Assembly: GCA_032622095.1 (NCBI GenBank)
Contig: CP136066.1
Location: 226,862,961-226,926,960, forward strand
Reading direction: 5' to 3'
DNA: 64,000 nt
DNA from: Siphonodentalium dalli
Lineage: Eukaryota; Mollusca; Scaphopoda; Gadilida; Siphonodentaliidae
Shown: one piece after another, positions 5,837 to 64,000 of the stretch
Layout of the letters: each line of letters starts with the position of its first letter
Numbering within the stretch: position 1 is the first letter of the stretch
Notes under the pieces: generated by a model
Told to the model about the DNA's origin: nothing
Databases searched by the model: none
Seen by the model: only the letters and a program-made list of their open reading frames with translations
Made by a program: the position numbers and the translations under genes

Positions 5837-5996
5837 AGATTTATATCTGATAACTCTGAGCTTTGACGGGTGGGTTCTTCGACTCAAATAAATTATTTTT
5901 TTACCGCGAAACCAAAGAAATAGTATTTTAGGAGCGTTAATTCAGATTGTGCATCTTTAAACTATTGCAATTTTATTCTTTAATCTTAATCTTTAA
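5837..5996. repeat. Degraded fragment related to the 479-bp MITE
   Basis: AACTCTGAGCTTTGACGGGT, GGTTCTTCGACTCAAATAAA and CCAAAGAAATAGTA resemble one arm of the neighbouring element but are clearly more diverged. The sequence ends in CATCTTTAAAC. It is probably an older insertion of the same family beside the younger one. Confidence 0.55.
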
Positions 5997-6780: not shown

Positions 6781-6782
6781 GC

Positions 6783-14609: not shown

Positions 14610-14650
14610 CTCACCTCTAGTTCAATCTACATGTATGCTCATTGCATTAA

Positions 14651-15030: not shown

Positions 15031-15080
15031 TTAAGAAAAAACATTCAGCATAAGACAAAGATTATAGTGAGTTATTCCCA

Positions 15081-22267: not shown

Positions 22268-23137
22268 TATACCCCCCTTTAAAAAAAAAAGGGGGGTATA
22301 CTGTTTTGCACCTGTCCGTCCGTGCGTGCGTCCGTGAGTCCGTACGTCCGTCCGATGTCTGTTCGTGTCATAACTTGAACAGTAGTGCTCGGATCTCAAT
22401 GAAATTAGGTATGGATGTTCACTATTATGAGGACATTAAATAGAGGGTTCCATCGTTTTGTTTGGATTTTCCATTCTAGAGTTATTCATCTTTGTTTATC
22501 TGGAAATAGTGGCTTTTTGGTCCGTCTGGTGTCTGTTCATGTCGTAACTTCAACAGTTGTGCTGGGATCTCAACCAAATTTGGTGTGGATGTTCACAACT
22601 ATGAGGACATTAAATAGAGGGTTCCATTGTTCTGTTCTGCTTTTCCATTCTAGAGTAATTCATCTTTGTTTATCTTGAAATGTTGGATTTTTGGTCCATC
22701 TGGTGTCTGTTCATGTCATAACCTGAACAGTAGTGCTCGGATCTCAATGAAATTTGGTATAGATGTTCACTGCTATGAGGACATTCAATAGGGGGTTCCA
22801 TTGTTCTGTTCTGCTTTTCCATTCTAGAGTAATTCATCTTTGTTTATCTGGAAATGTTGGCTGTTTGATCCATCCGATGTCTGTTCAGCTCATAACTTGA
22901 ACAGTAATGCTCGGATCTCAATGAAATTTTGTATGGATGTTCACCACTATGAGGACATTTAATGGCACATTCAAATGTTTGTTTTGGTTTTTTGTTCTAT
23001 AGTTATTCATCTTTGTTTATATGAAAATGCTGATTTCTGGGTCCATATGTCTGAGTATAGCCATCATAAGTTATAGATGTGCCCACACTTGGCGGTATGC
23101 CATGAGGGGGTATGCACCGGACGACAGTCCATCTCTT
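22268..23137 (+). repeat. Dispersed repeat: hairpin, CCGT run, four 174-bp units
   Basis: The element opens with TATACCCCCCTTT pairing with AAAGGGGGGTATA, then CTGTTTTGCACCTGTCCGTC and a CCGT-type microsatellite. Four diverged units follow, with GTCTGTT markers at 22357, 22531, 22704 and 22879; each holds TAACTTGAACAGTAGTGCTC and GGATCTCAATGAAAT. The tail is GGGGGTATGCACCGGACGAC with CATCTCTTGTTTT. This architecture reminds me of bivalve dispersed repeats, but that is from memory only. An 87-residue frame inside has no recognisable domain. Confidence 0.65.
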
Positions 23138-37410: not shown

Positions 37411-38649
37411 TTCCGAACTAATTTACATGTAATACAGCAAATGGAATTGTTTAACATTTGGAAATTCAAATGGAATCCAGTGGTGTGGCGCACAGTTGGA
37501 AATTCGGCGATGCAATTAAAACCCAATCGAGGCGACATTACTACGTCGCTGTTGTAACATGAATGACATTTTGTGGATTTTAAGAGCAGGTGAATATTTC
37601 ATGGGTGTCTAGTGGGAGATTTATGTTTCTCAGAACTCTTCTCACTCATTGTGCACATTTACGACCGACATTGTCCTGCGAACAATTGAGCAGGTAGAAA
37701 CCAACCCCATCATAGAGATGGTAAACATAAGTGCCGATACGAAACTACGTTTAATGAAACATTAATTGCAAAATTAGCACAATAGACTTGGGTAAAGGTA
37801 TGTTACGCATATAATTTTACAGTGATACAGGTGATTACAAAGCAAGTGAACTAATTATTGGCACACAAGAAAACCATAGTCAGAAATGGTATATAGGTAA
37901 CGCCTATGTAGTTGAGTATATGTGATATTGTTTTCTAATTCCATTTGAAAGAGTGGTCTGAATAGCTCATGAAATACATGTAGCATGCAGAATAATAATC
38001 AGGAAAAAAATTGCGATCTTCGTAACATGTTCAACTATGCAAATCACATTTAGTATCCAATTACGCAAATACCGAGTATGTTTTAATCACGTTTAGTCTA
38101 CCACATGATCCACATCCTGCGACATGTTCAGATATACTTGCCAATATACACACTAGGAGGGCATAATGCTGATTCATAGCTCCGATATATTAGGCATACA
38201 AAGAAATGAAAAGTCAATATATCACGAAGGAGTAACGTGGGAATTGGTTAATAATTACTATCCCAATTCATTTAGAATATAACATGCCGATATTTGTCGC
38301 GTATAACTAAATGAAAAAGTTCATTAAACGATACATCTATTAAATAACATGTTAAACACCGATATAAACAAACACCTCGTAGGATTCATGTTCGAATTAA
38401 ATTTCTTGTACAATCGTCAAATCCCCGTGTAGTATAATAGCAGATACCATTCCGATTTATGTCACGTGAAAATAAACGAAAGATGTTCAAATTACAATGC
38501 AACAAAGCAGGTTAAAGAACAATAGAAACACATAACACGCAGCGCGTTAATGATTAACGCGTGAATTCCCGTTAGAATAAATTAGCTCGCACATCTTGGC
38601 ATACGAATAAAAAAACCATTGGCCAATCAAGCATGTCTCAAGGGTACCG
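37411..38649. other. Single-copy-looking flank of the 65-bp satellite
   Basis: About 1.2 kb of AT-rich sequence with no repeat shared with the rest of the window and no reading frame of note. A 19-bp palindrome, CGCGTTAATGATTAACGCG, lies near 38544. The boundary with the satellite is abrupt at AAGGGTACCGATCGG. Confidence 0.5.
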
Positions 38650-41554
38650 ATCGGATGACACCCGCATCATGTGGTGCCCTGAGTCAAGAAAACTATGGTC
38701 CCATACATTCGGCGATCGGATGATACCATCATCATGTGGTGCCCAGACTCAATAAAACTATGGTCCCATACATTCGGCGATCGGATGATACCATCATCAT
38801 GTGGTTCCCAGACTCAAGGAAACTATGGTCCCATACATTCGGCGATCGGATGATACCATCATCATGTGGTGCTCAGACTCAAGAAAACTATGGTCCCATA
38901 CATTCGGCGATCGGATGACACCCGCATCATATGGTGCCCAGACTCAAGAAAACTATGGTCCCATACATTCGGCGTTCGGATGACACCCGCATAATGTGGT
39001 GCCCAGACTCAATAAAACTATGGTCCCATACATTCGGCGATCGGACAACACCCGCATCATATGGTGCCCAGACTCAATAAAACTATGGTCCCATACATTC
39101 GGCGATCGGATGACACCCGCATGATGTGGTGCCCAGACTCAATAAAACTATGGTCCCATACATTCGGCGATCGGACAACACCCGCATCATATGGTGCCCA
39201 GACTCAATAAAACTATGGTCCCATACATTCGGCGATCGGATGACACCCGCATGATGTGGTGCCCAGACTCAATAAAACTATGGTCCCATACATTCGGCGA
39301 TCGGATTACACCCTCATCATGTGGTGCCCAGACTCAATAAAACTATGGCCCCATACATTCGGCGATCGGATGAAACCCGCATCATGTGGTGCCAAGACTC
39401 AAGGAAACTATGGTCCCATTCATTCGGCGATCTGATGATACCATCATCATGTGGTGCCCAGACTCAAGAAAACTATGGTCCCATACATTCGGCGATCGGA
39501 TGATACCATCATCATGTGGTGCCCAGACTCAAGAAAACTATGGTCCCATACATTCGGCGATCGGATGACACCCGCGTCATGTGGTGCCCAGACTCAAGAA
39601 AACTATGGTCCCATACATTCGGCGATCGGATGACACCCGCATAATGTGGTGCCCAGACTCAATAAAACTATGGTCCCATACATTCGGCGATCGGATGACA
39701 CCCGCATCACGTGGTGACCAGACTCAATAAAACTATGGTCCCATACATTCGGCGATCGGATGACACCCACATAATGTGGTGCTCAGACTCAATAAAACTA
39801 TGGTCCCATACATTCGGCGATCGGATGACACCCGCACCATTTGGTGCCCTGAGTCAATAAAACTATGGTCCCATACATTCGGCGATCGGATGACACCCGC
39901 ATCATGTGGTGCCCAGACTAAAGAAAACTATGGTCCCATACATTCGGCGATCGGATGACACCCGCATCATGTGGTGCCCAGACTCAATAAAACTATGGTC
40001 CCATACATTCGGCGATCCGATGACACCCGCATCATGTGGTGCCCAGACTCAATAAAACTATGGTTCCATACATTCGGCGATCGGATGACACCCGCATCAT
40101 GTGGTGCCCAGACTCAAGAAAACTATGGTTCCATACATTCGGCGATCGGATGACACCCGCATCATGTGGTGCTCAGACTCAATAAAACTATGTTCCCATA
40201 CATTCGGCGATCGGATGACACCCGCATCATGTGGTGCCCTGAGTCAATAAAACTATGGTCCCATACATTCGGCGATCGGATGACACCCGCATCATGTGGT
40301 GCCCAGACTCAAGAAAACTATGGTCCCATACATTCGGCGATCGGATGAAACCCGCATCATGTGGTGCCCTGACTCAATAAAACTATGGTCCCATACATTC
40401 GGCGATCGGATGATATCATCATCATGTGGTGCCCAGACTCAATAAAACTATGGTCCCATACATTCGGCGGTCGGATGAAACCCGCATCATTTGGTGCCCA
40501 GACTCAATAAAACTATGGTCCCATACATTCGGCGATCTGATGAAACCCGCATTATGTGGTGCCCTGCGTCAAGAAAACTATGGTCCCATACATTCGGCGA
40601 TCGGATGACACCCGCATCATGTGGTGCTCAGACTCAATAAAACTATGGTTCCATACATTCGGCGATCGGATGACACCCGCATCATGTGGTGCCCAGACTC
40701 AAGAAAACTATGGTCCCATACATTCGGCGATCTGATGAAACCCGCATCATGTGGTGCCCTGCGTCAAGAAAACTATGGTCCCATACATTCGGCGATCGGA
40801 TGACACCCGCATCATTTGGTGCCCTGAGTCAATAAAACTATGGTCCCATACATTCGGCGATCGGATGACACCCACATCGTGTGGTGCCCAGACTCAAGAA
40901 AACTATGGTCCCATACATTCGGCGATCGGATGACACCCGCATCATGTGGTGCCCAGACTCAATAAAACTATGGTCCCATACATTCGGCGATCGGATGACA
41001 CCCGCATCATGTGGTGCCCAGACTCAAGGAAACTATGGTCCCATACATTCGGCGATCGGATGACACCCGCATCATATGGTGCCCAGACTCAATAAAACTA
41101 TGGTCCCATACCTTCGGCGATAGGATGGCACCCACATCATGTGGTACCCAGACTCAACAAAACTATGGTCCCATACATTCGGCGATCGGATGACACCCGC
41201 ATAATGTGGTACCCAGACTCAAGAAAACTATGGTCCCATACATTCGGCGATCGGATGACGCCCGCATCATGTGGTGCCCAGACTCAAGAACACTATGGTC
41301 CCATACATTCGGCGATCGGATGACACTCGCATCATGTGGTGCCCAGACTCAATAAAACTATGGTCCCATACATTCGGCGATCGGATGATACCACCATCAT
41401 GTGGTGCCCTGCGTCAAAAAAACTATGGTCCCATACATTCGGCAATCTGATGACACCCGCATCATGTGGTGCCCAGACTCAATAAAACTATGGTCCCATA
41501 CATTCGGCGATCGGATGATATCATCATCATGTGGTGCCCTGACTCAAGAAAACT

Positions 41555-44500
41555 ATGGTACCATACATTCGGCGATCGATGACACCCGCATCATGTGGTG
41601 CCCAGACTCAACAAAACTATGGTCCCATACATTCGGCGATCGATGACACTCGCATCATATGGTGCCCAGACTCAATAAAACTATGGTCCCATACATTCGG
41701 CGATCGGATGATACCATCATCATGTGGTGCCCTGCGTCAAGAAAACTATGGTCCCATACATTCGGCGATCTGATGACACCCGCATCACGTGGTGCCCAGA
41801 CTCAATAAAACTATGGTCCCATATATTCGGCGATCGGATGATGGTTCCCAGACTCAAGGAAACTATGGTCCCATACATTCGGCGATCGGATGAAACCCGC
41901 ATCATGTGGTGCCCTGCGTCAAGAAAACTATGGTCCCATACATTCGGCGATCGGATGACACCCGCATCATGTGGTGCCCAGACTCAATAAAACTATGGTC
42001 CCATACATTCGGCGATCGGATGACACCCGCATCTTGTGGTGCCCAGACTCAATAAAACTATGGTCCCATACATTCGGCGATCGGATGACACCCGCATCAT
42101 GTGGTACCCAGACTCAAGGAAACTATGGTCCCATACATTCGGCGATCGGATGACACTCGCATCATGTGGTGCCCAGACTCAATAAAACTATGGTCCCATA
42201 CATTCGGCGATCGGATGACACCCACATAATGTGGTGCTCAGACTCAATAAAACTATGGTCCCATACATTCGGCGATCGGATGACACCCGCACCATTTGGT
42301 GCCCTGAGTCAATAAAACTATGGTCCCATACATTCGGCGATCGGATGACACCCGCATCATGTGGTGCCCAGACTAAAGAAAACTATGGTCCCATACATTC
42401 GGCGATCGGATGAAACCCGCATCATGTGGTACCCAGACTCAATAAAACTATGGTCCCATACATTCGGCGATCCGATGACACCCGCATCATGTGGTGCCCA
42501 GACTCAATAAAACTATGGTTCCATACATTCGGCGATCGGATGACACCCGCATCATGTGGTGCCCAGACTCAAGAAAACTATGGTTCCATACATTCGGCGA
42601 TCGGATGACACCCGCATCATGTGGTGCTCAGACTCAATAAAACTATGTTCCCATACATTCGGCGATCGGATGACACCCGCATCATGTGGTGCCCTGAGTC
42701 AATAAAACTATGGTCCCATACATTCGGCGATCGGATGACACCCGCATCATATGGTGCCCAGACTCAAGAAAACTATGGTCCCATACATTCGGCGATCGGA
42801 TGAAACCCGCATCATGTGGTGCCCTGACTCAATAAAACTATGGTCCCATACATTCGGCGATCGGATGACACCCGCATCATGTGGTGCCCAGACTCAAGAA
42901 CACTATGGTCCCATACATTCGGCGATCGGATGACACTCGCATCATGTGGTGCCCAGACTCAATAAAACTATGGTCCCATACATTCGGCGATCGGATGATA
43001 CCATCATCATGTGGTGCCCTGCGTCAAAAAAACTATGGTCCCATACATTCGGCAATCTGATGACACCCGCATCATGTGGTGCCCAGACTCAATAAAACTA
43101 TGGTCCCATACATTCGGCGATCGGATGATATCATCATCATGTGGTGCCCTGACTCAAGAAAACTATGGTACCATACATTCGGCGATCGATGACACCCGCA
43201 TCATGTGGTGCCCAGACTCAACAAAACTATGGTCCCATACATTCGGCGATCGATGACACTCGCATCATATGGTGCCCAGACTCAATAAAACTATGGTCCC
43301 ATACATTCGGCGATCGGATGATACCATCATCATGTGGTGCCCTGCGTCAAGAAAACTATGGTCCCATACATTCGGCGATCTGATGACACCCGCATCACGT
43401 GGTGCCCAGACTCAATAAAACTATGGTCCCATATATTCGGCGATCGGATGATGGTTCCCAGACTCAAGGAAACTATGGTCCCATACATTCGGCGATCGGA
43501 TGAAACCCGCATCATGTGGTGCCCTGCGTCAAGAAAACTATGGTCCCATACATTCGGCGATCGGATGACACCCGCATCATGTGGTGCCCAGACTCAATAA
43601 AACTATGGTCCCATACATTCGGCGATCGGATGACACCCGCATCTTGTGGTGCCCAGACTCAATAAAACTATGGACCCATACATTCGGCGATCGGATGACA
43701 CCCGCATCATGTGGTACCCAGACTCAAGGAAACTATGGTCCCATACATTCGGCGATCGGATGACACTCGCATCATGTGGTGCCCAGACTCAATAAAACTA
43801 TGGTCCCATACATTCGGCGATCGGATGACACCCACATAATGTGGTGCTCAGACTCAATAAAACTATGGTCCCATACATTCGGCGATCGGATGACACCCGC
43901 ACCATTTGGTGCCCTGGGTCAATAAAACTATGGTCCCATACATTCGGCGATCGGATGACACCCGCATCATGTGGTGCCCAGACTAAAGAAAACTATGGTC
44001 CCATACATTCGGCGATCGGATGACACCCGCATCATGTGGTGCCCAGACTCAATAAAACTATGGTCCCATACATTCGGCGATCCGATGACACCCGCATCAT
44101 GTGGTGCCCAGACTCAATAAAACTATGGTTCCATACATTCGGCGATCGGATGACACCCGCATCATGTGGTGCCCAGACTCAAGAAAACTATGGTTCCATA
44201 CATTCGGCGATCGGATGACACCCGCATCATGTGGTGCTCAGACTCAATAAAACTATGTTCCCATACATTCGGCGATCGGATGACACCCGCATCATGTGGT
44301 GCCCTGAGTCAATAAAACTATGGTCCCATACATTCGGCGATCGGATGACACCCGCATCATGTGGTGCCCAGACTCAAGAAAACTATGGTCCCATACATTC
44401 GGCGATCGGATGAAACCCGCATCATGTGGTGCCCTGACTCAATAAAACTATGGTCCCATACATTCGGCGATCGGATGATATCATCATCATGTGGTGCCCA

Positions 44501-47500
44501 GACTCAATAAAACTATGGTCCCATACATTCGGCGGTCGGATGAAACCCGCATCATTTGGTGCCCAGACTCAATAAAACTATGGTCCCATACATTCGGCGA
44601 TCTGATGAAACCCGCATTATGTGGTGCCCTGCGTCAAGAAAACTATGGTCCCATACATTCGGCGATCGGATGACACCCGCATCATGTGGTGCTCAGACTC
44701 AATAAAACTATGGTCCCATACATTCGGCGATCGGATGACACCCGCATCATGTGGTGCCCAGACTCAAGAAAACTATGGTCCCATACATTCGGCGATCTGA
44801 TGAAACCCGCATCATGTGGTGCCCTGCGTCAAGAAAACTATGGTCCCATACATTCGGCGATCGGATGACACCCGCATCATTTGGTGCCCTGAGTCAATAA
44901 AACTATGGTCCCATACATTCGGCGATCGGATGACACCCACATCGTGTGGTGCCCAGACTCAAGAAAACTATGGTCCCATACATTCGGCGATCGGATGACA
45001 CCCGCATCATGTGGTGCCCAGACTCAATAAAACTATGGTCCCATACATTCGGCGATCGGATGACACCCGCATCATGTGGTGCCCAGACTCAAGGAAACTA
45101 TGGTCCCATACATTCGGCGATCGGATGACACCCGCATCATATGGTGCCCAGACTCAATAAAACTATGGTCCCATACCTTCGGCGATAGGATGGCACCCAC
45201 ATCATGTGGTACCCAGACTCAACAAAACTATGGTCCCATACATTCGGCGATCGGATGACACCCGCATAATGTGGTACCCAGACTCAAGAAAACTATGGTC
45301 CCATACATTCGGCGATCGGATGACACCCGCATCATGTGGTGCCCAGACTCAAGAACACTATGGTCCCATACATTCGGCGATCGGATGACACTCGCATCAT
45401 GTGGTGCCCAGACTCAATAAAACTATGGTCCCATACATTCGGCGATCGGATGATACCATCATCATGTGGTGCCCTGCGTCAAAAAAACTATGGTCCCATA
45501 CATTCGGCAATCTGATGACACCCGCATCATGTGGTGCCCAGACTCAATAAAACTATGGTCCTATACATTCGGCGATCGGATGATATCATCATCATGTGGT
45601 GCCCTGACTCAAGAAAACTATGGTACCATACATTCGGCGATCGATGACACCCGCATCATGTGGTGCCCAGACTCAACAAAACTATGGTCCCATACATTCG
45701 GCGATCGATGACACTCGCATCATATGGTGCCCAGACTCAATAAAACTATGGTCCCATACATTCGGCGATCGGATGATACCATCATCATGTGGTGCCCTGC
45801 GTCAAGAAAGCTATGGTCCCATACATTCGGCGATCTGATGACACCCGCATCACGTGGTGCCCAGACTCAATAAAACTATGGTCCCATATATTCGGCGATC
45901 GGATGATGGTTCCCAGACTCAAGGAAACTATGGTCCCATACATTCGGCGATCGGATGAAACCCGCATCATGTGGTGCCCTGCGTCAAGAAAACTATGTTC
46001 CCATACATTCGGCGATCGGATGACACCCGCATCATGTGGTGCCCAGACTCAATAAAACTATGGTCCCATACATTCGGCGATCGGATGACACCCGCATCTT
46101 GTGGTGCCCAGACTCAATAAAACTATGGTCCCATACATTCGGCGATCGGATGACACCCGCATCATGTGGTACCCAGACTCAAGGAAACTATGGTCCCATA
46201 CATTCGGCGATCGGATGACACTCGCATCATGTGGTGCCCAGACTCAATAAAACTATGGTCCCATACATTCGGCGATCGGATGACACCCACATAATGTGGT
46301 GCTCAGACTCAATAAAACTATGGTCCCATACATTCGGCGATCGGATGACACCCGCACCATTTGGTGCCCTGAGTCAATAAAACTATGGTCCCATACATTC
46401 GGCGATCGGATGACACCCGCATCATGTGGTGCCCAGACTAAAGAAAACTATGGTCCCATACATTCGGCGATCGGATGACACCCGCATCATGTGGTGCCCA
46501 GACTCAATAAAACTATGGTCCCATACATTCGGCGATCCGATGACACCCGCATCATGTGGTGCCCAGACTCAATAAAACTATGGTTCCATACATTCGGCGA
46601 TCGGATGACACCCGCATCATGTGGTGCCCAGACTCAAGAAAACTATGGTTCCATACATTCGGCGATCGGATGACACCCGCATCATGTGGTGCTCAGACTC
46701 AATAAAACTATGTTCCCATACATTCGGCGATCGGATGACACCCGCATCATGTGGTGCCCTGAGTCAATAAAACTATGTTCCCATACATTCGGCGATCGGA
46801 TGACACCCGCATCATGTGGTGCCCAGACTCAAGAAAACTATGGTCCAATACATTCGGCGATCGGATGAAACCCGCATCATGTGGTGCCCTGACTCAATAA
46901 AACTATGGTCCCATACATTCGGCGATCGGATGATATCATCATCATGTGGTGCCCAGACTCAATAAAACTATGGTCCCATACATTCGGCGGTCGGATGAAA
47001 CCCGCATCATTTGGTGCCCAGACTCAATAAAACTATGGTCCCATACATTCGGCGATCTGATGAAACCCGCATTATGTGGTGCCCTGCGTCAAGAAAACTA
47101 TGGTCCCATACATTCGGCGATCGGATGACACCCGCATCATGTGGTGCTCAGACTCAATAAAACTATGGTCCCATACATTCGGCGATCGGATGACACCCGC
47201 ATCATGTGGTGCCCAGACTCAAGAAAACTATGGTCCCATACATTCGGCGATCTGATGAAACCCGCATCATGTGGTGCCCTGCGTCAAGAAAACTATGGTC
47301 CCATACATTCGGCGATCGGATGACATCCGCATCATATGGTGCCCAGACTCAATAAAACTATGGTCCCATACCTTCGGCGATAGGATGGCACCCACATCAT
47401 GTGGTACCCAGACTCAACAAAACTATGGTCCCATACATTCGGCGATCGGATGACACCCGCATAATGTGGTACCCAGACTCAAGAAAACTATGGTCCCATA

Positions 47501-50500
47501 CATTCGGCGATCGGATGACACCCGCATCATGTGGTGCCCAGACTCAAGAACACTATGGTCCCATACATTCGGCGATCGGATGACACTCGCATCATGTGGT
47601 GCCCAGACTCAATAAAACTATGGTCCCATACATTCGGCGATCGGATGATACCATCATCATGTGGTGCCCTGCGTCAAAAAAACTATGGTCCCATACATTC
47701 GGCAATCTGATGACACCCGCATCATGTGGTGCCCAGACTCAATAAAACTATGGTCCTATACATTCGGCGATCGGATGATATCATCATCATGTGGTGCCCT
47801 GACTCAAGAAAACTATGGTACCATACATTCGGCGATCGATGACACCCGCATCATGTGGTGCCCAGACTCAACAAAACTATGGTCCCATACATTCGGCGAT
47901 CGATGACACTCGCATCATATGGTGCCCAGACTCAATAAAACTATGGTCCCATACATTCGGCGATCGGATGATACCATCATCATGTGGTGCCCTGCGTCAA
48001 GAAAACTATGGTCCCATACATTCGGCGATCTGATGACACCCGCATCACGTGGTGCCCAGACTCAATAAAACTATGGTCCCATATATTCGGCGATCGGATG
48101 ATGGTTCCCAGACTCAAGGAAACTATGGTCCCATACATTCGGCGATCGGATGAAACCCGCATCATGTGGTGCCCTGCGTCAAGAAAACTATGGTCCCATA
48201 CATTCGGCGATCGGATGACACCCGCATCATGTGGTGCCCAGACTCAATAAAACTATGGTCCCATACATTCGGCGATCGGATGACACCCGCATCTTGTGGT
48301 GCCCAGACTCAATAAAACTATGGTCCCATACATTCGGCGATCGGATGACACCCGCATCATGTGGTACCCAGACTCAAGGAAACTATGGTCCCATACATTC
48401 GGCGATCGGATGACACTCGCATCATGTGGTGCCCAGACTCAATAAAACTATGGTCCCATACATTCGGCGATCGGATGACACCCACATAATGTGGTGCTCA
48501 GACTCAATAAAACTATGGTCCCATACATTCGGCGATCGGATGACACCCGCACCATTTGGTGCCCTGAATCAATAAAACTATGGTCCCATACATTCGGCGA
48601 TCGGATGACACCCGCATCATGTGGTGCCCAGACTAAAGAAAACTATGGTCCCATACATTCGGCGATCGGATGACACCCGCATCATGTGGTGCCCAGACTC
48701 AATAAAACTATGGTCCCATACATTCGGCGATCCGATGACACCCGCATCATGTGGTGCCCAGACTCAATAAAACTATGGTTCCATACATTCGGCCATCGGA
48801 TGACACCCGCATCATGTGGTGCCCAGACTCAAGAAAACTATGGTTCCATACATTCGGCGATCGGATGACACCCGCATCATGTGGTGCTCAGACTCAATAA
48901 AACTATGTTCCCATACATTCGGCGATCGGATGACACCCGCATCATGTGGTGCCCTGAGTCAATAAAACTATGGTCCCATACATTCGGCGATCGGATGACA
49001 CCCGCATCATGTGGTGCCCAGACTCAAGAAAACTATGGTCCCATACATTCGGCGATCGGATGAAACCCGCATCATGTGGTGCCCTGACTCAATAAAACTA
49101 TGGTCCCATACATTCGGCGATCGGATGATATCATCATCATGTGGTGCCCAGACTCAATAAAACTATGGTCCCATACATTCGGCGGTCGGATGAAACCCGC
49201 ATCATTTGGTACCCAGACTCAATAAAACTATGGTCCCATACATTCGCCGATCTGATGAAACCCGCATTATGTGGTGCCCTGCGTCAAGAAAACTATGGTC
49301 CCATACATTCGGCGATCGGATGACACCCGCATCATGTGGTGCTCAGACTCAATAAAACTATGGTCCCATACATTCGGCGATCGGATGACACCCGCATCAT
49401 GTGGTGCCCAGACTCAAGAAAACTATGGTCCCATACATTCGGCGATCTGATGAAACCCGCATCATGTGGTGCCCTGCGTCAAGAAAACTATGGTCCCATA
49501 CATTCGGCGATCGGATGACACCCGCATCATTTGGTGCCCTGAGTCAATAAAACTATGGTCCCATACATTCGGCGATCTGATGAAACCCGCATTATGTGGT
49601 GCCCTGCGTCAAGAAAACTATGGTCCCATACATTCGGCGATCGGACGACACCCGCATCATGTGGTGCCCAGACTCAATAAAACTATGGTCCCATACATTC
49701 GGCGATCGGATGATATCATCATCATGTGGTGCCCTGACTCAAGAAAACTATGGTACCATACATTCGGCGATCGATGACACCCGCATCATGTGGTGCCCAG
49801 ACTCAACAAAACTATGGTCCCATACATTCGGCGATCGATGACACTCGCATCATATGGTGCCCAGACTCAATAAAACTATGGTCCCATACATTCGGCGATC
49901 GGATGATACCATCATCATGTGGTGCCCTGCGTCAAGAAAACTATGGTCCCATACATTCGGCGATCTGATGACACCCGCATCACGTGGTGCCCAGACTCAA
50001 TAAAACTATGGTCCCATATATTCGGCGATCGGATGATGGTTCCCAGACTCAAGGAAACTATGGTCCCATGCATTCGGCGATCGGATGAAACCCGCATCAT
50101 GTGGTGCCCTGCGTCAAGAAAACTATGGTCCCATACATTCGGCGATCGGATGACACCCGCATCATGTGGTGCCCAGACTCAATAAAACTATGGTCCCATA
50201 CATTCGGCGATCGGATGACACCCGCATCTTGTGGTGCCCAGACTCAATAAAACTATGGTCCCATACATTCGGCGATCGGATGACACCCGCATCATGTGGT
50301 ACCCAGACTCAAGGAAACTATGGTCCCATACATTCGGCGATCGGATCACACTCGCATCATGTGGTGCCCAGACTCAATAAAACTATGGTCCCATACATTC
50401 GGCGATCGGATGACACCCACATAATGTGGTGCTCAGACTCAATAAAACTATGGTCCCATACATTCGGCGATCGGATGACACCCGCACCATTTGGTGCCCT

Positions 50501-53500
50501 GAGTCAATAAAACTATGGTCCCATACATTCGGCGATCGGATGACACCCGCATCATGTGGTGCCCAGACTAAAGAAAACTATGGTCCCATACATTCGGCGA
50601 TCGGATGACACCCGCATCATGTGGTGCCCAGACTCAATAAAACTATGGTCCCATACATTCGGCGATCCGATGACACCCGCATCATGTGGTGCCCAGACTC
50701 AATAAAACTATGGTCCTATACATTCGGCGATCGGATGATATCATCATCATGTGGTGCCCTGACTCAAGAAAACTATGGTACCATACATTCGGCGATCGAT
50801 GACACCCGCATCATGTGGTGCCCAGACTCAACAAAACTATGGTCCCATACATTCGGCGATCGATGACACTCGCATCATATGGTGCCCAGACTCAATAAAA
50901 CTATGGTCCCATACATTCGGCGATCGGATGATACCATCATCATGTGGTGCCCTGCGTCAAGAAAACTATGGTCCCATACATTCGGCGATCTGATGACACC
51001 CGCATCACGTGGTGCCCAGACTCAATAAAACTATGGTCCCATATATTCGGCGATCGGATGATGGTTCCCAGACTCAAGGAAACTATGGTCCCATACATTC
51101 GGCGATCGGATGAAACCCGCATCATGTGGTGCCCTGCGTCAAGAAAACTATGGTCCCATACATTCGGCGATCGGATGACACCCGCATCATGTGGTGCCCA
51201 GACTCAATAAAACTATGGTCCCATACATTCGGCGATCGGATGACACCCGCATCTTGTGGTGCCCAGACTCAATAAAACTATGGTCCCATACATTCGGCGA
51301 TCGGATGACACCCGCATCATGTGGTACCCAGACTCAAGGAAACTATGGTCCCATACATTCGGCGATCGGATGACACTCGCATCATGTGGTGCCCAGACTC
51401 AATAAAACTATGGTCCCATACATTCGGCGATCGGATGACACCCACATAATGTGGTGCTCAGACTCAATAAAACTATGGTCCCATACATTCGGCGATCGGA
51501 TGACACCCGCACCATTTGGTGCCCTGAATCAATAAAACTATGGTCCCATACATTCGGCGATCGGATGACACCCGCATCATGTGGTGCCCAGACTAAAGAA
51601 AACTATGGTCCCATACATTCGGCGATCGGATGACACCCGCATCATGTGGTGCCCAGACTCAATAAAACTATGGTCCCATACATTCGGCGATCCGATGACA
51701 CCCGCATCATGTGGTGCCCAGACTCAATAAAACTATGGTTCCATACATTCGGCCATCGGATGACACCCGCATCATGTGGTGCCCAGACTCAAGAAAACTA
51801 TGGTTCCATACATTCGGCGATCGGATGACACCCGCATCATGTGGTGCTCAGACTCAATAAAACTATGTTCCCATACATTCGGCGATCGGATGACACCCGC
51901 ATCATGTGGTGCCCTGAGTCAATAAAACTATGGTCCCATACATTCGGCGATCGGATGACACCCGCATCATGTGGTGCCCAGACTCAAGAAAACTATGGTC
52001 CCATACATTCGGCGATCGGATGAAACCCGCATCATGTGGTGCCCTGACTCAATAAAACTATGGTCCCATACATTCGGCGATCGGATGATATCATCATCAT
52101 GTGGTGCCCAGACTCAATAAAACTATGGTCCCATACATTCGGCGGTCGGATGAAACCCGCATCATTTGGTACCCAGACTCAATAAAACTATGGTCCCATA
52201 CATTCGCCGATCTGATGAAACCCGCATTATGTGGTGCTCTGCGTCAAGAAAACTATGGTCCCATACATTCGGCGATCGGATGACACCCGCATCATGTGGT
52301 GCTCAGACTCAATAAAACTATGGTCCCATACATTCGGCGATCGGATGACACCCGCATCATGTGGTGCCCAGACTCAAGAAAACTATGGTCCCATACATTC
52401 GGCGATCTGATGAAACCCGCATCATGTGGTGCCCTGCGTCAAGAAAACTATGGTCCCATACATTCGGCGATCGGATGACACCCGCATCATTTGGTGCCCT
52501 GAGTCAATAAAACTATGGTCCCATACATTCGGCGATCTGATGAAACCCGCATTATGTGGTGCCCTGCGTCAAGAAAACTATGGTCCCATACATTCGGCGA
52601 TCGGACGACACCCGCATCATGTGGTGCCCAGACTCAATAAAACTATGGTCCCATACATTCGGCGATCGGATGATATCATCATCATGTGGTGCCCTGACTC
52701 AAGAAAACTATGGTACCATACATTCGGCGATCGATGACACCCGCATCATGTGGTGCCCAGACTCAACAAAACTATGGTCCCATACATTCGGCGATCGATG
52801 ACACTCGCATCATATGGTGCCCAGACTCAATAAAACTATGGTCCCATACATTCGGCGATCGGATGATACCATCATCATGTGGTGCCCTGCGTCAAGAAAA
52901 CTATGGTCCCATACATTCGGCGATCTGATGACACCCGCATCACGTGGTGCCCAGACTCAATAAAACTATGGTCCCATATATTCGGCGATCGGATGATGGT
53001 TCCCAGACTCAAGGAAACTATGGTCCCATGCATTCGGCGATCGGATGAAACCCGCATCATGTGGTGCCCTGCGTCAAGAAAACTATGGTCCCATACATTC
53101 GGCGATCGGATGACACCCGCATCATGTGGTGCCCAGACTCAATAAAACTATGGTCCCATACATTCGGCGATCGGATGACACCCGCATCTTGTGGTGCCCA
53201 GACTCAATAAAACTATGGTCCCATACATTCGGCGATCGGATGACACCCGCATCATGTGGTACCCAGACTCAAGGAAACTATGGTCCCATACATTCGGCGA
53301 TCGGATCACACTCGCATCATGTGGTGCCCAGACTCAATAAAACTATGGTCCCATACATTCGGCGATCGGATGACACCCACATAATGTGGTGCTCAGACTC
53401 AATAAAACTATGGTCCCATACATTCGGCGATCGGATGACACCCGCACCATTTGGTGCCCTGAGTCAATAAAACTATGGTCCCATACATTCGGCGATCGGA

Positions 53501-56500
53501 TGACACCCGCATCATGTGGTGCCCAGACTAAAGAAAACTATGGTCCCATACATTCGGCGATCGGATGACACCCGCATCATGTGGTGCCCAGACTCAATAA
53601 AACTATGGTCCCATACATTCGGCGATCCGATGACACCCGCATCATGTGGTGCCCAGACTCAATAAAACTATGGTCCTATACATTCGGCGATCGGATGATA
53701 TCATCATCATGTGGTGCCCTGACTCAAGAAAACTATGGTACCATACATTCGGCGATCGATGACACCCGCATCATGTGGTGCCCAGACTCAACAAAACTAT
53801 GGTCCCATACATTCGGCGATCGATGACACTCGCATCATATGGTGCCCAGACTCAATAAAACTATGGTCCCATACATTCGGCGATCGGATGATACCATCAT
53901 CATGTGGTGCCCTGCGTCAAGAAAACTATGGTCCCATACATTCGGCGATCTGATGACACCCGCATCACGTGGTGCCCAGACTCAATAAAACTATGGTCCC
54001 ATATATTCGGCGATCGGATGATGGTTCCCAGACTCAAGGAAACTATGGTCCCATACATTCGGCGATCGGATGAAACCCGCATCATGTGGTGCCCTGCGTC
54101 AAGAAAACTATGGTCCCATACATTCGGCGATCGGATGACACCCGCATCATGTGGTGCCCAGACTCAATAAAACTATGGTCCCATACATTCGGCGATCGGA
54201 TGACACCCGCATCTTGTGGTGCCCAGACTCAATAAAACTATGGTCCCATACATTCGGCGATCGGATGACACCCGCATCATGTGGTACCCAGACTCAAGGA
54301 AACTATGGTCCCATACATTCGGCGATCGGATGACACTCGCATCATGTGGTGCCCAGACTCAATAAAACTATGGTCCCATACATTCGGCGATCGGATGACA
54401 CCCACATAATGTGGTGCTCAGACTCAATAAAACTATGGTCCCATACATTCGGCGATCGGATGACACCCGCACCATTTGGTGCCCTGAGTCAATAAAACTA
54501 TGGTCCCATACATTCGGCGATCGGATGACACCCGCATCATGTGGTGCCCAGACTAAAGAAAACTATGGTCCCATACATTCGGCGATCGGATGACACCCGC
54601 ATCATGTGGTGCCCAGACTCAATAAAACTATGGTCCCATACATTCGGCGATCCGATGACACCCGCATCATGTGGTGCCCAGACTCAATAAAACTATGGTT
54701 CCATACATTCGGCGATCGGATGACACCCGCATCATGTGGTGCCCAGACTCAAGAAAACTATGGTTCCATACATTCGGCGATCGGATGACACCCGCATCAT
54801 GTGGTGCTCAGACTCAATAAAACTATGTTCCCATACATTCGGCGATCGGATGACACCCGCATCATGTGGTGCCCTCAGTCAATAAAACTATGGTCCCATA
54901 CATTCGGCGATCGGATGACACCCGCATCATGTGGTGCCCAGACTCAAGAAAACTATGGTCCCATACATTCGGCGATCGGATGAAACCCGCATCATGTGGT
55001 GCCCTGACTCAATAAAACTATGGTCCCATACATTCGGCGATCGGATGATATCATCATCATGTGGTGCCCAGACTCAATAAAACTATGGTCCCATACATTC
55101 GGCGGTCGGATGAAACCCGCATCATTTGGTGCCCAGACTCAATAAAACTATGGTCCCATACATTCGGCGATCTGATGAAACCCGCATTATGTGGTGCCCT
55201 GCGTCAAGAAAACTATGGTCCCATACATTCGGCGATCGGATGACACCCGCATCATGTGGTGCTCAGACTCAATAGAACTATGGTCCCATACATTCGGCGA
55301 TCGGATGACACCCGCATCATGTGGTGCCCAGACTCAAGAAAACTATGGTCCCATACATTCGGCGATCTGATGAAACCCGCATCATGTGGTGCCCTGCGTC
55401 AAGAAAACTATGGTCCCATACATTCGGCGATCGGATGACACCCGCATCATTTGGTGCCCTGAGTCAATAAAACTATGGTCCCATACATTCGGCGATCTGA
55501 TGAAACCCGCATTATGTGGTGCCCTGCGTCAAGAAAACTATGGTCCCATACATTCGGCGATCGGATGACACCCGCATCATGTGGTGCCCAGACTCAATAA
55601 AACTATGGTCCCATACATTCGGCGATCGGATGATATCATCATCATGTGGTGCCCTGACTCAAGAAAACTATGGTACCATACATTCGGCGATCGATGACAC
55701 CCGCATCATGTGGTGCCCAGACTCAACAAAACTATGGTCCCATACATTCGGCGATCGATGACACTCGCATCATATGGTGCCCAGACTCAATAAAACTATG
55801 GTCCCATACATTCGGCGATCGGATGATACCATCATCATGTGGTGCCCTGCGTCAAGAAAACTATGGTCCCATACATTCGGCGATCTGATGACACCCGCAT
55901 CACGTGGTGCCCAGACTCAATAAAACTATGGTCCCATATATTCGGCGATCGGATGATGGTTCCCAGACTCAAGGAAACTATGGTCCCATACATTCGGCGA
56001 TCGGATGAAACCCGCATCATGTGGTGCCCTGCGTCAAGAAAACTATGGTCCCATACATTCGGCGATCGGATGACACCCGCATCATGTGGTGCCCAGACTC
56101 AATAAAACTATGGTCCCATACATTCGGCGATCGGATGACACCCGCATCTTGTGGTGCCCAGACTCAATAAAACTATGGTCCCATACATTCGGCGATCGGA
56201 TGACACCCGCATCATGTGGTACCCAGACTCAAGGAAACTATGGTCCCATACATTCGGCGATCGGATGACACTCGCATCATGTGGTGCCCAGACTCAATAA
56301 AACTATGGTCCCATACATTCGGCGATCGGATGACACCCACATAATGTGGTGCTCAGACTCAATAAAACTATGGTCCCATACATTCGGCGATCGGATGACA
56401 CCCGCACCATTTGGTGCCCTGAGTCAATAAAACTATGGTCCCATACATTCGGCGATCGGATGACACCCGCATCATGTGGTGCCCAGACTAAAGAAAACTA

Positions 56501-59500
56501 TGGTCCCATACATTCGGCGATCGGATGACACCCGCATCATGTGGTGCCCAGACTCAATAAAACTATGGTCCCATACATTCGGCGATCCGATGACACCCGC
56601 ATCATGTGGTGCCCAGACTCAATAAAACTATGGTTCCATACATTCGGCGATCGGATGACACCCGCATCATGTGGTGCCCAGACTCAAGAAAACTATGGTT
56701 CCATACATTCGGCGATCGGATGACACCCGCATCATGTGGTGCTCAGACTCAATAAAACTATGTTCCCATACATTCGGCGATCGGATGACACCCGCATCAT
56801 GTGGTGCCCTGAGTCAATAAAACTATGGTCCCATACATTCGGCGATCGGATGACACCCGCATCATGTGGTGCCCAGACTCAAGAAAACTATGGTCCCATA
56901 CATTCGGCGATCGGATGAAACCCGCATCATGTGGTGCCCTGACTCAATAAAACTATGGTCCCATACATTCGGCGATCGGATGATATCATCATCATGTGGT
57001 GCCCAGACTCAATAAAACTATGGTCCCATACATTCGGCGGTCGGATGAAACCCGCATCATTTGGTGCCCAGACTCAATAAAACTATGGTCCCATACATTC
57101 GGCGATCTGATGAAACCCGCATTATGTGGTGCCCTGCGTCAAGAAAACTATGGTCCCATACATTCGGCGATCGGATGACACCCGCATCATGTGGTGCTCA
57201 GACTCAATAAAACTATGGTCCCATACATTCGGCGATCGGATGACACCCGCATCATGTGGTGCCCAGACTCAAGAAAACTATGGTCCCATACATTCGGCGA
57301 TCTGATGAAACCCGCATCATGTGGTGCCCTGCGTCAAGAAAACTATGGTCCCATACATTCGGCGATCGGATGACACCCGCATCATTTGGTGCCCTGAGTC
57401 AATAAAACTATGGTCCCATACATTCGGCGATCTGATGAAACCCGCATTATGTGGTGCCCTGCGTCAAGAAAACTATGGTCCCATACATTCGGCGATCGGA
57501 TGACACCCGCATCATGTGGTGCCCAGACTCAATAAAACTATGGTCCCATACATTCGGCGATCGGATGACACCCGCATCATGTGGTGCCCAGACTCAAGGA
57601 AACTATGGTCCCATACATTCGGCGATCGGATGACACCCGCATCATATGGTGCCCAGACTCAATAAAACTATGGTCCCATACCTTCGGCGATAGGATGGCA
57701 CCCACATCATGTGGTACCCAGACTCAACAAAACTATGGTCCCATACATTCGGCGATCGGATGACACCCGCATCATGTGGTACCCAGACTCAAGAAAACTA
57801 TGGTCCCATACATTCGGCGATCGGATGACACCCGCATCATGTGGTGCCCAGACTCAAGAACACTATGGTCCCATACATTCGGCGATCGGATGACACTCGC
57901 ATCATGTGGTGCCCAGACTCAATAAAACTATGGTCCCATACATTCGGCGATCGGATGATACCATCATCATGTGGTGCCCTGCGTCAAAAAAACTATGGTC
58001 CCATACATTCGGCAATCTGATGACACCCGCATCATGTGGTGCCCAGACTCAATAAAACTATGGTCCCATACATTCGGCGATCGGATGATATCATCATCAT
58101 GTGGTGCCCTGACTCAAGAAAACTATGGTACCATACATTCGGCGATCGATGACACCCGCATCATGTGGTGCCCAGACTCAACAAAACTATGGTCCCATAC
58201 ATTCGGCGATCGATGACACTCGCATCATATGGTGCCCAGACTCAATAAAACTATGGTCCCATACATTCGGCGATCGGATGATACCATCATCATGTGGTGC
58301 CCAGCGTCAAGAAAACTATGGTCCCATACATTCGGCGATCTGATGACACCCGCATCACGTGGTGCCCAGACTCAATAAAACTATGGTCCCATATATTCGG
58401 CGATCGGATGATGGTTCCCAGACTCAAGGAAACTATGGTCCCATACATTCGGCGATCGGATGAAACCCGCATCATGTGGTGCCCTGCGTCAAAAAAACTA
58501 TGGTCCCATACATTCGGCGATCGGATGACACCCGCATCATGTGGTGCCCAGACTCAATAAAACTATGGTCCCATACATTCGGCGATCGGATGATATCATC
58601 ATCATGTGGTGCCCTGACTCAAGAAAACTATGGTACCATACATTCGGCGATCGATGACACCCGCATCATGTGGTGCCCAGACTCAACAAAACTATGGTCC
58701 CATACATTCGGCGATCGATGACACTCGCATCATATGGTGCCCAGACTCAATAAAACTATGGTCCCATACATTCGGCGATCGGATGATACCATCATCATGT
58801 GGTGCCCTGCGTCAAGAAAACTATGGTCCCATACATTCGGCGATCTGATGACACCCGCATCACGTGGTGCCCAGACTCAATAAAACTATGGTCCCATATA
58901 TTCGGCGATCGGATGATGGTTCCCAGACTCAAGGAAACTATGGTCCCATACATTCGGCGATCGGATGAAACCCGCATCATGTGGTGCCCTGCGTCAAGAA
59001 AACTATGGTCCCATACATTCGGCGATCGGATGACACCCGCATCATGTGGTGCCCAGACTCAATAAAACTATGGTCCCATACATTCGGCGATCGGATGACA
59101 CCCGCATCTTGTGGTGCCCAGACTCAATAAAACTATGGTCCCATACATTCGGCGATCGGATGACACCCGCATCATGTGGTACCCAGACTCAAGGAAACTA
59201 TGGTCCCATACATTCGGCGATCGGATGACACTCGCATCATGTGGTGCCCAGACTCAATAAAACTATGGTCCCATACATTCGGCGATCGGATGACACCCAC
59301 ATAATGTGGTGCTCAGACTCAATAAAACTATGGTCCCATACATTCGGCGATCGGATGACACCCGCACCATTTGGTGCCCTGAGTCAATAAAACTATGGTC
59401 CCATACATTCGGCGATCGGATGACACCCGCATCATGTGGTGCCCAGACTAAAGAAAACTATGGTCCCATACATTCGGCGATCGGATGACACCCGCATCAT

Positions 59501-62500
59501 GTGGTGCCCAGACTCAATAAAACTATGGTCCCATACATTCGGCGATCCGATGACACCCGCATCATGTGGTGCCCAGACTCAATACAACTATGGTTCCATA
59601 CATTCGGCGATCGGATGACACCCGCATCATGTGGTGCCCAGACTCAAGAAAACTATGGTTCCATACATTCGGCGATCGGATGACACCCGCATCATGTGGT
59701 GCGCAGACTCAATAAAACTATGTTCCCATACATTCTGCGATCGGATGACACCCGCATCATGTGGTGCCCTGAGTCAATAAAACTATGGTCCCATACATTC
59801 GGCGATCGGATGACACCCGCATCATGTGGTGCCCAGACTCAAGAAAACTATGGTCCCATACATTCGGCGATCGGATGAAACCCGCATCATGTGGTGCCCT
59901 GACTCAATAAAACTATGGTCCCATACATTCGGCGATCGGATGATATCATCATCATGTGGTGCCCAGACTCAATAAAACTATGGTCCCATACATTCGGCGG
60001 TCGGATGAAACCCGCATCATTTGGTGCCCAGACTCAATAAAACTATGGTCCCATACATTCGGCGATCTGATGAAACCCGCATTATGTGGTGCCCTGCGTC
60101 AAGAAAACTATGGTCCCATACATTCGGCGATCGGATGACACCCGCATCATGTGGTGCTCAGACTCAATAAAACTATGGTCCCATACATTCGGCGATCGGA
60201 TGACACCCGCATCATGTGGTGCCCAGACTCAAGAAAACTATGGTCCCATACATTCGGCGATCTGATGAAACCCGCATCATGTGGTGCCCTGCGTCAAGAA
60301 AACTATGGTCCCATACATTCGGCGATCGGATGACACCCGCATCATTTGGTGCCCTGAGTCAATAAAACTATGGTCCCATACATTCGGCGATCTGATGAAA
60401 CCCGCATTATGTGGTGCCCTGCGTCAAGAAAACTATGGTCCCATACATTCGGCGATCGGATGACACCCGCATCATGTGGTGCCCAGACTCAAGAAAACTA
60501 TGGTCCCATACATTCGGCGATCGGATGACACCCGCATCATGTGGTGCCCAGACTCAATAAAACTATGGTCCCATACATTCGGCGATCGGATGACACCCGC
60601 ATCATGTGGTGCCCAGACTCAAGGAAACTATGGTCCCATACATTCGGCGATCGGATGACACCCGCATCATATGGTGCCCAGACTCAATAAAACTATGGTC
60701 CCATACCTTCGGCGATAGGATGGCACCCACATCATGTGGTACCCAGACTCAACAAAACTATGGTCCCATACATTCGGCGATCGGATGACACCCGCATCAT
60801 GTGGTACCCAGACTCAAGAAAACTATGGTCCCATACATTCGGCGATCGGATGACACCCGCATCATGTGGTGCCCAGACTCAAGAACACTATGGTCCCATA
60901 CATTCGGCGATCGGATGACACTCGCATCATGTGGTGCCCAGACTCAATAAAACTATGGTCCCATACATTCGGCGATCGGATGATACCATCATTATGTGGT
61001 GCCCTGCGTCAAAAAAACTATGGTCCCAAACATTCGGCAATCTGATGACACCCGCATCATGTGGTGCCCAGACTCAATAAAACTATGGTCCCATACATTC
61101 GGCGATCGGATGATATCATCATCATGTGGTGCCCTGACTCAAGAAAACTATGGTACCATACATTCGGCGATCGATGACACCCGCATCATGTGGTGCCCAG
61201 ACTCAACAAAACTATGGTCCCATACATTCGGCGATCGATGACACTCGCATCATATGGTGCCCAGACTCAATAAAACTATGGTCCCATACATTCGGCGATC
61301 GGATGATACCATCATCATGTGGTGCCCTGCGTCAAGAAAACTATGGTCCCATACATTCGGCGATCTGATGACACCCGCATCACGTGGTGCCCAGACTCAA
61401 TAAAACTATGGTCCCATATATTCGGCGATCGGATGATGGTTCCCAGACTCAAGGAAACTATGGTCCCATACATTCGGCGATCGGATGACACCCGCATCAT
61501 GTGGTGCCCAGACTCAATAAAACTATGGTCCCATACATTCGGCGATCGGATGACACCCGCATCTTGTGGTGCCCAGACTCAATAAAACTATGGTCCCATA
61601 CATTCGGCGATCGGATGACACCCGCATCATGTGGTACCCAGACTCAAGGAAACTATGGTCCCATACATTCGGCGATCGGATGACACTCGCATCATGTGGT
61701 GCCCAGACTCAATAAAACTATGGTCCCATACATTCGGCGATCGGATGACACCCGCATCATGTGGTGCCCTGAGTCAAGAAAACTATGGTCCCATACATTC
61801 GGCGATCGGATGATACCATCATCATTTGGTGCCCAGACTCAACAAAACTATGGTCCCATACATTCGGCGACCGGATGAAACCCGCATCATGTGGTGCCCA
61901 GACTCAATAACACTATGGTCCCATACATTCGGCGATCGGATGACACCCGCATCATGAGGTGCACTGAGTCAAGAAAACTATGGTCCCATACATTCGGCAA
62001 TCGTATGATATCATCATCATGTGGTGCCCAGACTCAAGAAAACTATGGTCCCATACACTCGGCGATCGGATGAAACCCGCATCATGTGGTGCCCAGAGTC
62101 AAGAAAACTATGGTCCCATACATTCGGCGATCGGATGATACCATCATCATGTGCCCACATTCAAGGACACTATGGTCCCATACATTCGGGGATCGGATGA
62201 CAACCGCATAATGTGGTGCCCAGAATCAAGAAAACTATGGTCCCATACATTCGGCGATCGGATGACACCCGCATCATGTGGTGCCCAGACTCAAGAAAAC
62301 TATGGTTCCATACATTCGGCGATCGGATGACACCCGCATCATGTGGTGCTCAGACTCAATAAAACTATGTTCCCATACATTCTGCGATCGGATGACACCC
62401 GCATCATGTGGTGCCCTGAGTCAATAAAACTATGGTCCCATACATTCGGCGATCGGATGACACCCGCATCATGTGGTGCCCAGACTCAAGAAAACTATGG

Positions 62501-63960
62501 TCCCATACATTCGGCGATCGGATGAAACCCGCATCATGTGGTGCCCTGACTCAATAAAACTATGGTCCCATACATTCGGCGATCGGATGATATCATCATC
62601 ATGTGGTGCCCAGACTCAATAAAACTATGGTCCCATACATTCGGCGGTCGGATGAAACCCGCATCATTTGGTGCCCAGACTCAATAAAACTATGGTCCCA
62701 TACATTCGGCGATCTGATGAAACCCGCATTATGTGGTGCCCTGCGTCAAGAAAACTATGGTCCCATACATTCGGCGATCGGATGACACCCGCATCATGTG
62801 GTGCTCAGACTCAATAAAACTATGGTCCCATACATTCGGCGATCGGATGACACCCGCATCATGTGGTGCCCAGACTCAAGAAAACTATGGTCCCATACAT
62901 TCGGCGATCTGATGAAACCCGCATCATGTGGTGCCCTGCGTCAAGAAAACTATGGTCCCATACATTCGGCGATCGGATGACACCCGCATCATTTGGTGCC
63001 CTGAGTCAATAAAACTATGGTCCCATACATTCGGCGATCTGATGAAACCCGCATTATGTGGTGCCCTGCGTCAAGAAAACTATGGTCCCATACATTCGGC
63101 GATCGGATGACACCCGCATCATGTGGTGCCCAGACTCAAGAAAACTATGGTCCCATACATTCGGCGATCGGATGACACCCGCATCATGTGGTGCCCAGAC
63201 TCAATACAACTATGGTCCCATACATTCGGCGATCGGATGACACCCGCATCATGTGGTGCCCAGACTCAAGGAAACTATGGTCCCATACATTCGGCGATCG
63301 GATGACACCCGCATCATATGGTGCCCAGACTCAATAAAACTATGGTCCCATACCTTCGGCGATAGGATGGCACCCACATCATGTGGTACCCAGACTCAAC
63401 AAAACTATGGTCCCATACATTCGGCGATCGGATGACACCCGCATCATGTGGTACCCAGACTCAAGAAAACTATGGTCCCATACATTCGGCGATCGGATGA
63501 CACCCGCATCATGTGGTGCCCAGACTCAAGAACACTATGGTCCCATACATTCGGCGATCGGATGACACTCGCATCATGTGGTGCCCAGACTCAATAAAAC
63601 TATGGTCCCATACATTCGGCGATCGGATGATACCATCATTATGTGGTGCCCTGCGTCAAAAAAACTATGGTCCCAAACATTCGGCAATCTGATGACACCC
63701 GCATCATGTGGTGCCCAGACTCAATAAAACTATGGTCCCATACATTCGGCGATCGGATGATATCATCATCATGTGGTGCCCTGACTCAAGAAAACTATGG
63801 TACCATACATTCGGCGATCGATGACACCCGCATCATGTGGTGCCCAGACTCAACAAAACTATGGTCCCATACATTCGGCGATCGATGACACTCGCATCAT
63901 ATGGTGCCCAGACTCAATAAAACTATGGTCCCATACATTCGGCGATCGGATGATACCATC
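41555..63960 (+). repeat. Higher-order blocks within the 65-bp satellite
   Basis: A cluster of two 64-bp units (GGCGATCGATGACAC, one G-G step lost) and, a few units on, one 52-bp unit (CGGATGATGGTTCCCAGACT) marks each block. Its marker falls at 41555, 43165, 45620, 47815, 49750, 50775, 52710, 53735, 55670, 58125, 58630, 61150 and 63797. The spacings correspond to 25, 38, 34, 30, 16, 30, 16, 30, 38, 8, 39 and 41 monomers, each minus 15 bp (the last minus 18). Blocks share long runs of identical variants, so they arose by unequal exchange of multi-kilobase segments. Confidence 0.85.
47815..53734 (+). repeat. Two adjacent, nearly identical 2,960-bp superblocks
   Basis: 47815-50774 and 50775-53734 share private variants exactly 2,960 bp apart: GGCCATCGGATG (near 48793 and 51753), CATTCGCCGATCTGATG (near 49244 and 52204), GGTCCCATGCATTCGG (near 50063 and 53023) and CGGATCACACTCG (near 50342 and 53302). 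At least one difference exists (GGTGCCCTGCG against GGTGCTCTGCG near 49277 and 52237), so it is not a pure assembly copy. Each superblock comprises a 30-unit and a 16-unit block. Confidence 0.8.
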
Positions 63961-64000
63961 ATCATGTGGTGCCCTGCGTCAAGAAAACTATGGTCCCATA

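Follow-up and report, generated by a model that had tools for sequence, protein, structure and literature searches.

The window, meaning the whole stretch of 64,000 nucleotides analysed here (G000:C6:226862961-226926960), belongs to a genome assembly of 2.23 Gb in nine contigs. Its right part is occupied by a satellite array with a 65-bp unit, whose monomers we delimited by wrap-around alignment to a 65-bp consensus. Since the array continues past the window, coordinates above 64000 are called extended and refer to the window plus the adjoining stretches.

38648-64000, + strand: in-window part of the 65-bp satellite array (wrap-around alignment), which runs on to extended 152204

By the same alignment, the whole array measures 113,557 bp (113.6 kb) and contains about 1751 monomers, 493 of them distinct, all in a single orientation. 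A 31-base core of the unit has 959 exact matches genome-wide, 958 of which fall inside the array, a pattern that diverged arrays would escape. No telomere tract was detected in the first or last 1500 bases of contig C6. The array shows few large changes that break register; one of them is a 94-bp spacing at extended 121818-121883, where 36 bases are missing in the alignment.

The remainder of the window (1-38600) encodes two open reading frames of at least 130 amino acids (stop to stop) and harbors further repeats. A second satellite at 7785-14609 consists of 145 copies of a 47-bp unit with offsets of 846 bp (18 units), 94 and 423 bp, and may also possess higher-order structure. Shorter tandem arrays lie at 5996-6781 (158-bp unit, 5 copies) and 22346-23029 (174-bp unit, 3.9 copies). 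Both large arrays stop shortly, 38 and 22 bp, before the motif TTAACCCTT (14647-15034; extended 152226 onward). This motif opens a very abundant hairpin-bearing repeat, for which a first look at the genome gave 3325 candidates (40 scored) and of which many hairpin copies occur in the window. It may represent a miniature element with a TTAA target, and its adjacency to the arrays may be due to chance.

The sequence-only reading had divided part of the 65-bp array into blocks by a recurring cassette of two 1-bp deletions and one 13-bp deletion. Monomer cutting and typing recovered this cassette as two consecutive 64-bp monomers, two monomers of normal length and then a 52-bp monomer, at the following positions:

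41573-41882, + strand: cassette 1
43183-43492, + strand: cassette 2
45638-45947, + strand: cassette 3
47833-48142, + strand: cassette 4
49768-50077, + strand: cassette 5
50793-51102, + strand: cassette 6
52728-53037, + strand: cassette 7
53753-54062, + strand: cassette 8
55688-55997, + strand: cassette 9
58143-58452, + strand: cassette 10
58648-58957, + strand: cassette 11
61168-61477, + strand: cassette 12
63815-64000, + strand: cassette 13, cut by the window end, with its 52-bp monomer at extended 64073

The block lengths given before, 1610, 2455, 2195, 1935, 1025, 1935, 1025, 1935, 2455, 505, 2520 and 2647 bp, were reproduced exactly and correspond to 25, 38, 34, 30, 16, 30, 16, 30, 38, 8, 39 and 41 monomers. 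Eleven of the 12 intercassette intervals follow 65n-15 and the last one 65n-18. All 40 length-variant monomers among the 350 of this tagged stretch are accounted for by the 13 cassettes with three each plus one 62-bp unit, compared with none among 45 monomers to the left and 67 among 1355 to the right. This exact length pattern is not due to chance. It is also local and ceases past 64.1 kb. The earlier proposal that the arithmetic constitutes a rule does not hold, as the same outcome is expected from any in-register change when the tag contains the only length variants. As a mechanism we rejected it, because it follows from one indel cassette combined with exact 65-bp units. The observation of one tag per block is true and carries no information, because the blocks were defined by cutting at the tag. 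Evidence free of this circularity came from the block strings, in which the monomer types keep one common order shared among the blocks.

This order identifies the tagged stretch, which lies close to one array end, as a young domain of higher-order repeats (HOR) with a full unit of 38 monomers (2455 bp). As in other satellite HORs, divergent monomers stand in a fixed order that is itself repeated at much higher identity. The 35 indel-free canonical monomers differ from each other at a mean of 4.85 of 65 positions (~7.5%), whereas copies of the HOR differ by 0-0.77% (mean 0.38% over 66 pairs), a lower bound because monomers left unpaired by the block alignment were not counted. The main segments are:

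38648-39752, + strand: left rim, 17 monomers, most of which have no very close copy, the best copies lying mainly in the older interior
39753-41830, + strand: partial first copy of the 38-monomer order, beginning at canonical position 7 (monomer string)
43441-45895, + strand: 38-monomer block of canonical length, 2455 bp (monomer string)
48091-51050, + strand: 30-mer plus 16-mer, copy 1 of a 2960-bp two-block duplication (2960 is the commonest offset; private variants are shared)
51051-54010, + strand: 30-mer plus 16-mer, copy 2 of this duplication
55946-58400, + strand: 38-monomer block of canonical length, 2455 bp (monomer string)
61738-62254, + strand: eight older-type monomers in the last block (types 56 to 159), including the 62-bp unit

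Most of the shorter blocks are the 38-mer minus whole monomers, in register. Relative to the 38-monomer order, the 25-mer lacks 13 successive monomers, the 34-mer 4, the 30-mer 8 and the 16-mer 22; the 8-mer lacks 30, or 22 if it was derived from the 30-mer via two identical monomers. The 30-mer was found three times, and the four private variants common to two of these copies fit a single deletion that was then inherited. The blocks of 39 and 41 monomers are not plain deletions. Block 11 has one monomer more than the 38-mer, and the last block is a mosaic that is without one canonical monomer and in which the eight older-type monomers replace five others. The 62-bp unit that had been invoked to explain the odd length of the last block is indeed present (62128-62189), but instead of being a separate addition it arrived within this run of eight. 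Three of these older types plus a 62-bp unit recur at extended 85.65-85.87 kb.

How monomer runs were lost can be judged best at the junctions, all of which hold the 65-bp register. The most telling one belongs to the 16-mer:

50663-50727, + strand: junction monomer type 154 of the 16-mer, a chimera of types 59 and 147, with a second copy at 53623-53687

Type 154 equals the start of type 59 joined to the end of type 147 with zero mismatches, the break lying between bases 6 and 52. This junction is perfect only with allele 147 as the right parent, which was chosen after inspection and whose two occurrences are in blocks 2 and 3. The 218 types with two or more occurrences give 47,524 ordered pairs, of which five fit type 154, and four of these use type 59 or 147. 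In the test of six junctions with the initial parents, those of the 34-mer, one 30-mer and the 16-mer each kept one mismatch. The 25-mer, the other 30-mer and the 8-mer showed no mismatch, but their junction monomer equals the unchanged left parent and is therefore little informative. The partners at five junctions were closer to each other than random pairs (mean of 2.6 versus 4.85 differences, permutation p 0.016; 3.0 and p 0.042 if the 8-mer is taken from the 38-mer rather than the 30-mer). A phase test on exact matches (908 of 908) was discarded, since identical sequence has identical phase by construction.

With a probability of roughly 85%, we consider that the higher-order domain arose by homologous exchange between misaligned repeats, which deleted and duplicated runs of monomers, that the cassette was passive in this process, and that the unit itself originated from a dispersed repeat. 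Unequal sister-chromatid crossing-over, or conversion or replication repair on a misaligned template, would have deleted and duplicated the monomer runs, and whole blocks, once two blocks together, would have been duplicated in tandem. The proposal of repeated unequal in-register exchange or replication-based amplification, made from the sequence beforehand, is thus supported by the in-register losses, the common order and the chimeric junction. On one haplotype, crossing-over, conversion and template switching cannot be distinguished.

Alternatively, saltatory or replication-based amplification, by re-inserted rolling circles, break-induced replication or template switching, might have made the blocks, with only a minor role for crossing-over. 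We regard this as possible but doubtful. The 2960-bp two-block unit was copied with a single difference in total, as this alternative would predict, and divergence among the 12 tagged blocks showed no significant rise with distance (Mantel r 0.16, p 0.11). Furthermore, simple unequal crossover alone has been judged insufficient for the spread of new HORs in human arrays, according to PMC11062924. However, adjacent blocks are of mixed length, and near-identical stretches cluster strongly at short range when the whole array is considered: the fraction of near-identical pairs of 8-monomer windows drops from 0.0048 at lags of 8-49 to 0.0000045 at lags of at least 800, albeit unevenly (outside the tagged domain 0.0007 at lags 50-99 and 0.0019 at 100-199). 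The chimeric junction likewise requires homology-guided exchange at some step, although template switching during replication could also yield it. The same absence of a significant distance effect bears on the idea that the tag allows the duplication history to be read. A few events can be read well, but for want of such an effect among the 12 blocks a full block tree is not claimed.

It is unlikely that the block structure is in part an artefact of assembly, with highly similar blocks miscounted or misordered. The array is known from the assembly alone, and blocks 5 and 7 are identical across all 16 monomers while blocks 4 and 6 differ at one base. Against this, most blocks carry private variants, the tagged domain grades smoothly into the older array via the mosaic block, and neither the window nor the four counted stretches (L001-L004) contain a single N.

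The cassette was inherited by descent, in agreement with its earlier description as heritable. It was not one ancestral unit, as had been assumed. Across the array we counted 17 pairs of 64-bp monomers and 13 copies of the 13-bp deletion, each of the latter accompanied by the pair, and no more 13-bp deletions of this type were found in the remaining 88 kb of the array after cassette 13. The four further pairs without the deletion are located at extended 65552, 68675, 75306 and 86753, and their distances from the preceding pair are 65n-18, 65n+3, 65n+1 and 65n+7, respectively. At 65552, the position of the 52-bp monomer is occupied by type 69, which minus 13 bases is identical to the 52-bp monomer, and at 86753 by a relative of type 69 with one substitution. 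Another type occupies this position at 68675 and 75306, which fall within the two copies of a 102-monomer tandem duplication. Because the pair occurs four times without the 13-bp deletion, twice before the undeleted parent type, the cassette was built stepwise, with the pair first. The three small deletions would have accumulated before the expansion, in two steps or more, and would since have been passive passengers. That the cassette instead is functional, e.g., as a protein-binding or break site that selection would maintain at one per block, is highly improbable: four of its six monomers (offsets -5, -4, -3 and -1) are of one type in 13 of 13 copies and the others in 11 of 13, yet the remaining HOR monomers, where present, are almost as uniform, the spacing ranges from 505 to 2647 bp, the pair also stands four times without the 13-bp deletion, and "once per block" stems from how the blocks were cut.

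Looking along the whole array, the main young layer lies off-centre, to the left, and the right end is oldest, but the rise in age toward the right is not smooth. Comparing each 8-monomer window with its best copy gave median divergences of 0-0.4% for the five bins covering the tagged part, 0 to 1.35% deeper in the array, and 3.7% and 6.7% for the two bins at its right end. Of the 17 four-monomer windows of the left rim, 12 differ from their best copy at 4-12 of 260 positions and the other five at one. Recent duplications were also found in the interior, at lag 102 around 68-75 kb (99.93% over 70 monomers) and at lag 45 around 124.7 kb (99.97% over 45 monomers). One-sided growth of the array from one flank may have occurred. 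This is weakened by the older left rim, the young interior duplications and a truncation at the left, where ~990 bp of paralog sequence are absent from the array locus; the array may also have been symmetric and have lost its left part.

An old dispersed repeat probably gave rise to the 65-bp unit through its terminal 65-70 bp, an origin that the sequence comparisons partly show. Outside the array we examined 12 single, degenerate copies of the unit located at the ends of dispersed repeats (L011, L016-L026). These were all the extra-array places listed in the similarity search and hence were picked by similarity. Sequence upstream of the unit that is shared with a paralogous locus (see below) is clear in nine of the 12 copies, marginal in L024 and absent in L011 and L020. 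Among the nine aligned copies, only about the last 140 bp are well conserved, and no clear terminal inverted repeat was found in the parent repeat. Two pairs of these copies, L018/L021 on C9 and L022/L025 on C8, are embedded in more extensive recent duplications (99.2% over 739 bp and 97.7% over 740 bp).

The paralogous locus lies 1.15 Mb away at C6:228.08 Mb and possesses both array flanks with only about 2.1 units between them. This segmental duplication spans G000:C6:228079964-228088544 (L012, L010, L013). The left flank matches at 95.0% over 1292 columns and pieces of the right flank at 92.2, 94.1 and 94.0%; two further short flank pieces match at ~99% at unequal spacing. The flanks differ by 149 substitutions in 4363 positions (3.4%), unevenly distributed (1.6% left, 3.3-4.6% right), so conversion between the paralogs is possible. 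Of the ~990 bp that the array locus is without, ~554 bp are a multi-copy repeat, possibly a later arrival in the paralog; an insert of ~585 bp with inverted-repeat ends is absent at the array locus as well.

The paralog may represent either the founder state before expansion or a contracted array. The former would be in line with its 105-bp unit stretch, which is one base off the majority consensus (two off the other consensus used), while only 9.0% of array windows have at most two differences, and with the upstream part of the dispersed repeat that is still joined to its first unit. The latter might apply because monomers diverge by 5.8% from the consensus and 9.1% pairwise, which exceeds the 3.4% flank substitutions, so that the array may predate the duplication. 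The sequence CTCAAG is found at both unit ends in the paralog. A locus at C2:6.3 Mb has the right-hand CTCAAG and matches the right flank only as far as the unit, which itself was not detected there. This suggests that the first duplication may go back to a short direct repeat: a tandem duplication of the terminal piece, perhaps between two CTCAAG matches, would have started the array. A complete series from birth to HOR, with single degenerate units, a paralog frozen at about two units and an array of 1751 units perhaps grown from one flank, is a tentative reading that we consider rather unlikely. If true, the monomer divergence of 5.8% versus 3.4% in the flanks would point to faster mutation inside the array.

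Compared with known systems, this array shows an ordinary mode of satellite evolution that can be read unusually well here; the particulars are new, the kind is not. The closest known relatives of the tagged HOR would, by analogy, be alpha-satellite deletion variants such as D17Z1 of human chromosome 17, for which PMC3966626 describes a 16-mer HOR plus 15-, 14-, 13- and 12-mer variants. Both systems have a main HOR with shorter variants, which in D17Z1 most likely are unequal-exchange deletions (PMC3966626). As in D17Z1, the shorter variants here miss whole monomers in register (25, 34, 30, 16 and 8 versus 38). A chimeric junction monomer is decisive only for the 16-mer, with three junctions uninformative and two retaining one mismatch. 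Human D5Z2 has four- and six-monomer variants that, according to PMC11062924, arose via repeated monomer deletion from an ancestral ten-monomer HOR. Complete human centromeres also show age layers, whose identity falls toward the pericentromere (PMC11062924), whereas the main young layer here starts 1.1 kb from the array end. In contrast to D17Z1, the monomer has 65 bp and thus not the ~171 bp of alpha satellite, block sizes range from 8 to 41, the tag is a set of indels, and the array is a single one of 113.6 kb, for which a role at the centromere would be hypothetical.

Mutation in the minisatellite MS32 is concentrated at one end. In the present array, the main young domain lies at the left and the oldest part at the right end, but younger pieces are found in the interior and a narrow rim of older monomers on the left. 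MS32, CEB1, MSY1 and other hypervariable minisatellites are described with units of 9-100 bp, a range that includes the 65-bp unit, and with internal variant structure as found here; strand-annealing gene conversion has been proposed for them (PMC2599865). They differ from the present array in its ~1751 units with HOR structure, known from one haplotype.

As in the accounts of satellites derived from transposable elements (PMC7004042, PMC12628747), the monomer has homologs in a dispersed repeat elsewhere without an array (the 12 copies and the two-unit paralog) and expanded at one locus. Here, the parent repeat is only a candidate transposable element, and a paralog of about two units survives 1.15 Mb away. 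If this paralog is the pre-expansion state, the pair of loci would allow measurement of how a satellite starts and of the mutation rate of the array versus its flanks. The array provides a clean natural record of a satellite building and trimming a HOR outside alpha satellite, in which indel tags allow several events to be ordered.
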